Shown here piece after piece: positions 3,663 through 7,611 of a stretch of 22,375 nucleotides of DNA (its first letter is position 1; every line of letters begins with the position of its first letter). Made by a program: the position numbers and the translations under genes. Origin of the DNA: a virus; the IMG/VR virus record IMGVR_UViG_3300007734_000481, positions 1 through 22,375 of that record; one strand, written 5' to 3'. The notes below the pieces were generated by a model that did not search any database, had not been told where the DNA came from, and saw nothing but the letters and a program-made list of their open reading frames with translations.

Positions 3663-3771
3663 ATGCTCCAAGATCTCCGGTGAGAAATAGGGCTTTATCA
3701 ACGATTGCGGCAGGGTAGTGGACTCCCTCTCGGACTTTATTAAGGATTTTTTGCGCTTGGTCATATGTCAT
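3553..3771 (-). CDS. Small phage protein (MTYDQAQKIL... family), overlaps the next gene
   Basis: A 72-aa frame starting at ATG 3771 with GGAGG five nt upstream, the best ribosome binding site nearby. The first ~34 residues (AQKILNKVREGVHYPAAIVD, then KALFLTGDLG) match a short-protein pattern I recall in phage replication regions. The remainder overlaps the CEAREW protein in another frame over about 110 bp and is less protein-like. Either both frames are translated, or the pair is an ancestral fusion broken by a frameshift, or a programmed frameshift joins them. The start overlaps the end of the replication-organizer-like gene (ATGA, 3768-3771). Confidence 0.6.
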   Translation of the reverse strand: MTYDQAQKILNKVREGVHYPAAIVDKALFLTGDLGAYEAMRGEGVDQTLQGESQGDWPHASSRLVGRRYFGH

Positions 3772-4121
3772 GATCCCCTCCTTAGTTGCTCCAGCCTCTC
3801 AAAAATATGGTCAGGCATCGGCACAGCACCCCTAATTCGCTCCTGATACTGCTCGGCCATCGTGACCTTCTTGACCGGCTCGGGTATCTCAGCACCATCC
3901 CATCGCTGCTGGTTGAGGTAGACCAACGGGGCAGGAATGTAAGCCCCATTGTCTTTGCGCCATTGGTCGGTCGTTTTTTGCCATTCGACATGCTTCAAAA
4001 TCTGGTCTGTACAATGTTCGTACAAGCCTTTTTTCCACTTGGCTTGGCAAGCTGACTTCGCACCCTTGCGAGGGCTTTTGGGCCATGCTGCCCAGAAGCG
4101 ATCAAATCCTGATTCAAACAT
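3768..4121 (-). CDS. Replication-organizer-like protein (O/DnaT C-terminal-type domain)
   Basis: A 117-aa protein. The sequence FDRFWAAWPKSPRKGAK (residues 6-22), then W-rich helices, then GAYIPAPLVYLNQQRWDGAE (~58-77) matches the C-terminal domain common in phage replication initiation/organizer proteins and DnaT-like proteins (pattern F..FW..YP...K..A...W, then YIP.P..YLN..RW). Here that domain is essentially the whole protein, without an N-terminal winged-helix origin-binding domain. It may therefore act as a helicase/primosome recruiting factor, with origin recognition supplied elsewhere (host DnaA boxes lie at 4327-4345). GGAG precedes ATG 4121, overlapping the zinc-ribbon gene by 8 bp. 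Confidence 0.75.
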   Translation of the reverse strand: MFESGFDRFWAAWPKSPRKGAKSACQAKWKKGLYEHCTDQILKHVEWQKTTDQWRKDNGAYIPAPLVYLNQQRWDGAEIPEPVKKVTMAEQYQERIRGAVPMPDHIFERLEQLRRGS

Positions 4122-4345: not shown

Positions 4346-4385
4346 AGGGTGCTTTTTGGTGGATGTCTGAGCAAAGCACAGCCTT
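4339..4385 (-). promoter_or_regulatory. Possible pseudoknot/switch hairpin in the leader of the 4323 gene
   Basis: On the minus-strand RNA, AAGG (4385-4382), a CT bulge and GTGCTTT (4379-4373) pair with AAAGCAC (4355-4349) and CCTT (4348-4345). The loop contains ATCCAC (4364-4359), which is complementary to GTGGAT (4344-4339) immediately 3' of the stem and just before the GGGGA ribosome binding site. The lower 4 bp of the stem and the loop pairing probably exclude each other, so the element may switch between a long hairpin and an H-type pseudoknot. Confidence 0.45.
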
Positions 4386-4566
4386 ACCGTACCAAAACGG
4401 GGTTCGCTCTGTGCCTTGTGCTTTCCGGAGCCATGCCGTCGCACCGCACTATCCCAGACTATTTCAACCACCGCGCTCTAGGAATTCGCCCACGCTCCCG
4501 GCTCTGGCTTGCTCGTGTAACCGGGTATCCCAAACCTGACCATCGACGTACCGCATCAGGCCGTCC
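4386..4566. other. Untranslated stretch between structured RNA and zinc-ribbon gene
   Basis: No gene is supported. An open minus frame over 4459-4707 has a GTG start without a good ribosome binding site and runs through the structured RNA. A CCCGG/CCGGG stem of 5 bp is visible around 4496-4524 but without conserved context. Part of this stretch may be the transcribed leader of the 4323 gene. Confidence 0.4.
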
Positions 4567-4730
4567 AAAAGCAAAAACCCCGAGGAGATGCTCTGCGGTC
4601 TTGGCTCTTGGCGAGAGCAGCAGCGAGGCGATTGAAGCGTCCCAAAAGACTCGCTCACTGCTATGCAAGACCGCACAACACCCACTCGGGGCTTGAGAAC
4701 GCTTCACTCACCCAGATGCCACTCTGGACG
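4567..4730 (-). ncRNA. Candidate structured small RNA with own promoter and U-tract end
   Basis: Nested complementary segments define a branched fold. P1 is CCCCGAG 4578-4584 with CTCGGGG 4685-4691. P2 is TGCGGTCTTG 4594-4603 with CAAGACCGCA 4666-4675 (10 bp). P3 is the hairpin GCTCT/AGAGC 4604-4618. P4 is AGCAG-CGAG 4619-4627 with CTCG (4650-4653) and CTGCT (4658-4662), with a 4-nt bulge. P2, P3 and P4 meet in a nearly linker-free three-way junction. On the minus strand a TTGACA-N16-TAGAAT promoter lies upstream, a 5' hairpin (CCAGA/TCTGG, 4712-4727) follows the predicted start, and TTTTTGCTTTT follows P1. Length is about 160 nt. No known RNA family is recognised. It lies just after the Cro-like gene, the place where lambda has OOP RNA. 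Minus strand is chosen from promoter and U-tract. Confidence 0.65.
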
Positions 4731-4736
4731 ACACGA

Positions 4737-4764
4737 ATTCTATGGATCTTTCTGGACTTGTCAA
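4737..4764 (-). promoter_or_regulatory. Sigma70-type promoter for the structured RNA
   Basis: On the minus strand TTGACA (4764-4759, perfect -35) and TAGAAT (4742-4737, one mismatch from TATAAT) are separated by 16 bp; predicted start near 4730. The -35 overlaps the stop codon of the Cro-like gene. It is the best constitutive-looking promoter I see in the window, in contrast to the two operator-covered early promoters. Confidence 0.7.
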
Positions 4765-4919
4765 GTCCCTGCAAACCACTCGGGTTTTAAGACCATCAGT
4801 TGATACAGACGGCCCTTGGGGATCTGTCGCCATTGGCTGATCGCACCACGGGAAATCCCCAATAGACGAGCAAGATTGCTCTGGTTACCTGCCCTCTTGA
4901 TCGCATCCTCTTTTGTCAT
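4761..4919 (-). CDS. cro: Cro-like helix-turn-helix repressor (52 aa)
   Basis: A 52-aa protein from ATG 4919 to TGA 4761, shorter than usual ORF cut-offs. Residues 11-30 read GNQSNLARLLGISRGAISQW, a canonical helix-turn-helix, followed by RQIPKGRLYQLMVLKPEWF, the IP-x-GR tail typical of small phage Cro/YdaS-type proteins that dimerise through a short C-terminal strand. It is divergent from the ERF operon, whose promoter B and operators lie 40-80 bp upstream. No clear ribosome binding site is visible (CAGGTG is far), so weak or leaderless translation is likely. It should repress promoter B and perhaps promoter A, which has the same dyad. No CI partner is seen in the window. Confidence 0.85.
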   Translation of the reverse strand: MTKEDAIKRAGNQSNLARLLGISRGAISQWRQIPKGRLYQLMVLKPEWFAGT

Positions 4920-4958
4920 GTTGACATTGTAATACACCTGTTCAGCAATCTACACATT

Positions 4959-7304: not shown

Positions 7305-7593
7305 TGGGGCGTGGAACGGCAGGGCTAGGCTAGGTTATCAGCAGATCAGGCATTTACCAAAGTGCCTTTTCTGGTGGCAACACCACACGGCGATGCGGTG
7401 CTCTGCGTGGCTGGGAAAGGCGTGGACGGGCGGGGCAACGACAGGCACTGCGCGGCTTGGCACGGCAACGCAAGGCAAAGCAAGGATGTTTATAGCGGTA
7501 TGTATCTCAAATGATACATATCGGTGGAAACACCACCTGGTATGGCAAGGCCCGGCTCGGCATGGCAAGGCCCGGCGCGGCAAGGCAAGGCAA
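7278..7593 (+). repeat. Three phased GGCNN pentanucleotide tracts with hairpin spacers
   Basis: Tract 1 (7278-7337), tract 2 (7389-7488, 20 consecutive 5-bp units) and tract 3 (7539-7593, 11 units) keep strict 5-bp phase with consensus GGCNN; most variants touch one base (GGA, TGC, CGC). The spacers hold hairpins: TGGTG-GCAA-CACCA (7372-7385) and GGTG-GAAA-CACC (7523-7534), both with GNRA loops, and TATGTATC/GATACATA (7499-7520). This ~300-bp interval between genes has no supported coding frame. GG every 5 bases could form two-layer G-quadruplexes in the plus strand or its RNA. Function unknown. Confidence 0.85.
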
Positions 7594-7611
7594 CCTTAAC
7601 GAAAGAAACTC

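Follow-up and report, generated by a model that had tools for sequence, protein, structure and literature searches.

What lies between the Cro-like regulator gene and the replication initiation gene of the phage represented by IMG/VR virus record IMGVR_UViG_3300007734_000481, and what might it do there? The stretch analysed (the window) comprises 22,375 bases of this record. A preliminary description, made from the letters alone, had proposed that positions 4730-4567 of the minus strand encode a new phage RNA whose structure includes a three-way junction. Folding of this strand gave -81.5 kcal/mol, compared with -57.3 ± 4.2 for shuffled sequences (z = -5.7), and none of the 200 shuffles was as stable. 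The RNA, which we call class A, and its surroundings are composed of the following parts.

4761-4937, minus strand: Cro-like regulator gene, upstream of the class A RNA (phrog_409, E 4e-15)
4737-4764, minus strand: sigma70-type promoter TTGACA-16-TAGAAT, 11/12 consensus, overlapping the end of the cro-like gene
4567-4730, minus strand: class A RNA, whole transcript (inferred start 4730), based on fold z, covariance model matches and covariation
4709-4730, minus strand: P0, the 5' hairpin, with loop GTGGCA at 4717-4722; double changes in 7/8 pairs
4696-4706, minus strand: pseudoknot strand a (TGAAGCGTTCT), pairing with 4633-4643
4666-4691, minus strand: 5' strand of the long P1/P2 helix; double changes in 12/25 pairs
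4621-4660, minus strand: P3, a long bulged hairpin (P4 of the preliminary description); double changes in 6/11 pairs
4633-4643, minus strand: pseudoknot strand b (GGGACGCTTCA), in the P3 loop, pairing with strand a
4604-4618, minus strand: P4, a small hairpin (P3 of the preliminary description), whose loop kisses the P0 loop (UGGC/GCCA)
4578-4603, minus strand: 3' strand of P2/P1, supported by covariation; P1 doubles as terminator stem
4567-4577, minus strand: U-tract of the intrinsic terminator (TTTTTGCTTTT), kept in nearly all homologues
4346-4563, minus strand: block 2, another structured RNA; its first helix starts 6 nt behind the U-tract
3768-4121, minus strand: replication initiation gene, downstream of the class A RNA (phrog_9474/phrog_270, E about 1e-12)

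P1, P2, both inner hairpins and the 5' hairpin were all found where they had been placed earlier, as were the near-perfect promoter and the U-tract. P1 (CCCCGAG/CTCGGGG, 4691-4685 with 4584-4578) and P2 (TGCGGTCTTG/CAAGACCGCA, 4675-4666 with 4603-4594) form one long helix broken by 1x1 mismatches. The bulged stem of P3 joins 4660-4651 with 4631-4621, and its loop carries an invariant UUU and pseudoknot strand b. P2, P4 and the P0 loop are nearly invariant across class A. At the 3' end lie a GC-rich stem and the U-tract. Among 119 homologues, at least five of the six letters of TATAAT are present in 112, nearly always 12-14 nt before the P0 loop, and at least five of the six of TTGACA in 64. 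The position of this conserved -10 element leads us to infer that transcription starts at the base of P0. In the absence of transcript data, the boundaries shown here are those predicted from DNA signals: the conserved -10 element fixes the start and the intrinsic terminator the end.

Homologues were retrieved by several routes. Scanning IMG/VR with the neighbouring replication protein yielded 80 rep loci, and a BLAST comparison of the RNA with all loci retrieved identified homologues in about two dozen of these, mostly at 72-80% identity. A gapped pattern on P2 and P4 recovered at least 120 distinct class A sequences from IMG/VR; two further scans gave at least 162 distinct pattern matches, a few of which are chance or antisense. 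Pattern-based retrieval favours conserved members of the class. A covariance model detected the class A RNA in 100 of 100 chosen loci (E <= 1e-20); these loci had been selected by pattern or homology, and the E-values are rough owing to a shortened calibration. The first alignment for this model, A3, was excluded because it contained opposite-strand mirror matches.

In the alignment of the nested structure (100 sequences, 94 distinct rows), 97.6% of pair cells were paired, and pairing fell below 48% when the partner was shifted by one column. Double changes affected 25 pairs, against 15.4 ± 1.5 in shuffles, and 292 cells, against 83 ± 7. Since the alignment was fitted to the nested structure, these counts lean towards that structure; the same double changes are present in MAFFT alignments made before fitting. 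A conserved protein frame was not found: member lengths differ modulo 3 and some carry a 1-nt loop deletion, in agreement with the earlier statement that no credible frame exists. We conclude that the predicted class A fold is demonstrated by covariation.

A kissing contact between the loops of P0 and P4 had been suggested as possible. Most members share the P0 loop UGGC and the P4 loop GCCA without change, a uniformity due in part to the first search pattern, in which the letters of the P4 loop were fixed. A scan that constrained P2 alone recovered a divergent member, L285, in which both loops differ in a compensatory manner (GCUAA/UUAGC); another member, L212, carries UGGU/ACCA, also compensatory. 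The putative P0-P4 contact is thus supported by two compensatory events, few but clean.

The preliminary description contained all the nested elements, but it overlooked a pseudoknot between the linker that follows P0 and the loop of P3 (4706-4696 with 4643-4633). This helix measures 8-15 bp across the family. In a set of 117 RNAs, the longest helix that the two regions can form averaged 10.3 bp within a molecule versus 5.6 bp between molecules, and 80 distinct helices were counted, with complementarity maintained. For the seven alignable pairs in the fitted alignment, the covariation score was 0.665 versus 0.190 after shuffling; strands a and b lie outside the model's structure, so this test gains nothing from the fit. 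The pseudoknot is also the fastest-changing part of the class A RNA. When scaffolds are at least 98% identical, pseudoknot letters are on average 59% identical, and below 95% scaffold identity they drop to about 30%, near chance. In two pairs of members (L208/L162 and L226/L171) the scaffolds are identical yet the pseudoknot helices differ, and the most divergent members, L285 and L332, retain the pseudoknot.

Does this RNA belong to a known family? No Rfam 15 family reaches its curated gathering cut-off in the window, and the best permissive match to the class A RNA, mir-988, scored 14.3 bits against the required 72 and is attributed to chance; the five related loci scanned gave no Rfam match either. 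This agrees with the earlier view that it matches no known RNA family. By DNA similarity, no match was found in isolate phages or plasmids. A pattern search of 84,980 bacterial species/genomes returned only two matches, both of which proved on inspection to be chance. Among isolate relatives, Methylophilales phage MEP301, the nearest Erf relative, lacks the class A RNA between the corresponding genes, where its sequence folds no better than shuffles. No description was found in the literature, restricted to open-licence papers. Large sets of candidate structured RNAs have been compiled from viral metagenomes and published; these may include an unnamed entry for it. We conclude that class A is confirmed as a previously uncatalogued, conserved family of structured phage RNAs of about 165 nt, found in many unrelated metagenomic phages.

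Type III toxin-antitoxin RNAs are marked by short repeats in tandem beside a toxin gene. In the window, the class A RNA is single-copy as read, with cro-like and replication neighbours; the replication initiation gene is present, and the phage's own packaging genes fall outside the record. Each of the 22 long contigs likewise carries one copy (22/22), the second match per row being the opposite-strand mirror of the same RNA. Among the matches listed, a cro-like gene lies upstream in 72 of 120 loci and rep lies downstream in 94 of 120, always co-directional with the RNA (94/94). In L285 the replication region is of the helicase type and the RNA still follows a cro-like gene (names from reading the sequences, without profile search). 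Terminase genes adjoin the RNA in about ten loci, and in the non-rep loci inspected the downstream terminase or structural genes run in its direction. That class A RNAs are also found next to terminase genes, in phages other than this one, indicates that the RNA moves between phage types. The slot had been likened to that of lambda OOP RNA, which is antisense to cII/O. Like OOP, the class A RNA is a small RNA between cro and replication genes, and this part of the analogy stands; unlike OOP, it is oriented in the sense of cro and rep, about twice as long, highly structured, and located beside terminase genes elsewhere.

In many relatives (L056, L016, L079, L047 and others), the cro-rep slot is occupied by another RNA of about 105 nt, class B, with the same layout of promoter, fold and terminator. 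Its 5' hairpin loop pairs with a downstream single strand, forming a tertiary helix of 7-8 bp in 18 of 19 distinct sequences, in eight versions that are always complementary. The 80 rep loci comprise 24 with class A, 35 with class B and none with both. On class B loci the class A model obtained only marginal matches (E 0.08-0.9), and by that test class B is not a diverged class A.

Block 2 follows both classes, in both slots. It contains helices that covary in 44 homologues and a direct repeat, AAAGCAC, at 4418-4424 and 4349-4355. In all homologues measured (63/63), a repeat of 5-11 nt follows GGCTCC and recurs behind CACC at a distance of 64-81 nt, with letters that vary between homologues; homologues of this type (type I) were found in loci L007-L280. 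Because its first helix begins only 6 nt past the U-tract, a promoter would not fit in between, and block 2 is presumably transcribed by read-through. An action at the DNA level is not excluded. A possible H-type pseudoknot was noticed in block 2 (GCACAG, AGCGAA / CTGTGC, TTTGCT). At least four other block-2 types (GACCGTACTCCGCACGA.., GACCGTCAGGGCGCGTTAGC.., GACCGAGTGACTCGCG.., GGATTGCAGACCAAAGTT..) were seen downstream of class A (L026, L072, L178, L223, L261), some of them apparently ending in a direct repeat.

What could such an RNA be doing at the head of these genes? Our preferred, still tentative, reading is that the class A RNA heads an attenuated or antiterminating leader controlling read-through into the downstream operon (probability about 0.4). 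This function is inferred, without transcript or read-through data. Transcription would start at the sigma70-type promoter, and the class A RNA would form the first module of a promoter-proximal leader. P0 would dock on the P4 loop by kissing and the linker after P0 would knot with the P3 loop, while the base of the long P1/P2 helix would serve as terminator stem. Most transcripts would end at this intrinsic terminator; the nascent RNA, once folded, would set the read-through into block 2 and the operon, either by itself or together with a phage or host factor. The operon contains replication genes here and packaging or structural genes in other phages.

We favour this leader because a co-directional operon lies behind the class A RNA, because block 2, as an RNA, requires read-through of the terminator, and because an unrelated RNA with the same layout, class B, replaces class A in the slot. 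The genes upstream are divergently oriented in L221, L231 and L261, which makes the class A promoter the nearest for the operon. The divergent L285 also has GGAGG in P1, just before the next ATG. Several observations weigh against a leader. An alternative antiterminator pairing was not found, the terminator stem itself belonging to the conserved fold. Where cro lies upstream, transcription from the cro promoter could also extend into block 2. The leader model leaves the hypervariability of the pseudoknot unexplained, and a trans-acting small RNA would be built in just the same way, as an RNA bounded by a terminator.

The class A RNA might instead be a "moron", a self-contained trans-acting unit whose knotted RNA has a conserved protein of host or phage as its partner (a nuclease, polymerase, ribosome or defence factor being candidates) and contacts it through an invariant face made of P2, P4 and the P0 loop; the pseudoknot would do no more than lock the fold. 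This model fits the self-contained unit and its invariant surface nearly as well as the leader does, and we regard it, the main rival, as possible, if doubtful. It would account for the RNA having its own promoter and terminator, for stems that close both of its ends, for its occurrence in unrelated phages and two different slots, for its single copy per long contig (22/22) and for the near invariance of the proposed face. It fits less well with the co-directional operon that class A heads in the inspected loci, with a second RNA that follows without a promoter gap, and with the strict replacement of class A by class B at a single site, which suggests a place-tied role.

Other explanations start from the hypervariable helix itself. 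On a fixed scaffold, a self-complementary helix of this kind could act as a barcode by which each phage's RNA recognises only itself, classes A and B having converged on this in the same slot; we hold this to be unlikely. If true, it would imply homo-oligomers, or an absence of cross-talk during co-infection. In a related reading, which we rate as distinctly improbable, the helix forms between molecules by domain swapping and builds phage-specific homo-oligomers, by analogy with the interlocking loops of phi29 pRNA. The helix does turn over fastest of all parts while keeping its complementarity, class B also has a variable tertiary helix, and terminase genes adjoin the RNA in some loci; yet an intramolecular pseudoknot is simpler, the P0-P4 contact already docks the 5' domain, and the cro-rep majority has no packaging link. 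Variable strands on a fixed scaffold would also suit an antisense or guide RNA in which one strand pairs with a target and the other is a built-in lock. Neither strand, in either orientation, showed an excess of matches in the same contigs over permuted sequences (partial contigs, without host genomes), and we consider this very unlikely. Finally, chance stem-loops or a coding region are contradicted by the covariation, which is far above both controls, as well as by the fold z-score and the lack of a conserved frame; we give this virtually no credence.

The class A RNA can be compared with several known systems. Control at the lambda late leader, PR'-6S RNA-tR', operates via Q loaded at DNA. 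It resembles class A in having a strong promoter, a short terminated leader and an operon behind the terminator; we know of no ornate conserved RNA fold there. The phi29 pRNA belongs to phi29-type packaging, in phages with protein-primed replication, and its loops pair between subunits to form a ring. It shares with class A a similar size, a three-way junction and loop-loop pairing with letters that differ between phages; class A has no sequence or Rfam match to it, and the class A strands are complementary within each molecule and might also pair between molecules. HK022 put RNA is about 70 nt long, with two stem-loops, no reported pseudoknot and no terminator of its own (PMC9378689). Like class A, it is an RNA of the phage early region that lies close to a promoter, with terminators and replication genes downstream; it acts by structure without a known phage protein, which for class A is inferred. 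Class A differs in its length (about 165 nt), pseudoknot, kissing loop and integrated terminator; put suppresses termination in cis, and for class A antitermination is only inferred. GOLLD and ROOL form homo-oligomeric cages and often lie near tRNA islands (PMC12286853); like class A they are ornate phage-associated RNAs that contain pseudoknots and kissing loops and have no known function, but they are far larger, and class A has no Rfam match.

Few new RNA families are well supported and also have covariation evidence for their tertiary contacts. Class A is common in phage metagenomes while absent from isolates and Rfam, and its hypervariable pseudoknot poses a sharp puzzle. Should the leader model hold, RNA-based control of read-through, known mainly from HK022, would be widespread and carried by at least two unrelated, mutually replacing folds.

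Some further features were observed in passing. The window encodes an anti-restriction-like protein at 1220-2002 on the plus strand (phrog_7245, E 9e-12). At 7338-7600, a gap between early genes, both strands give repetitive conceptual translations of low complexity, a sign of probable short, imperfect repeats in the DNA. In L259, a terminase-like frame upstream of the class A RNA runs into an intein/Hint-like stretch (CTPGTLIAMADGSQKPIESV..), judged by eye only. The cro-rep interval may contain a third RNA: a match to int-alpA RNA (RF02996) at 4209-4136 on the minus strand scored 30.2 bits, below the gathering score of 35.8 (E 7.6e-5), and L026 has a similar weak match.
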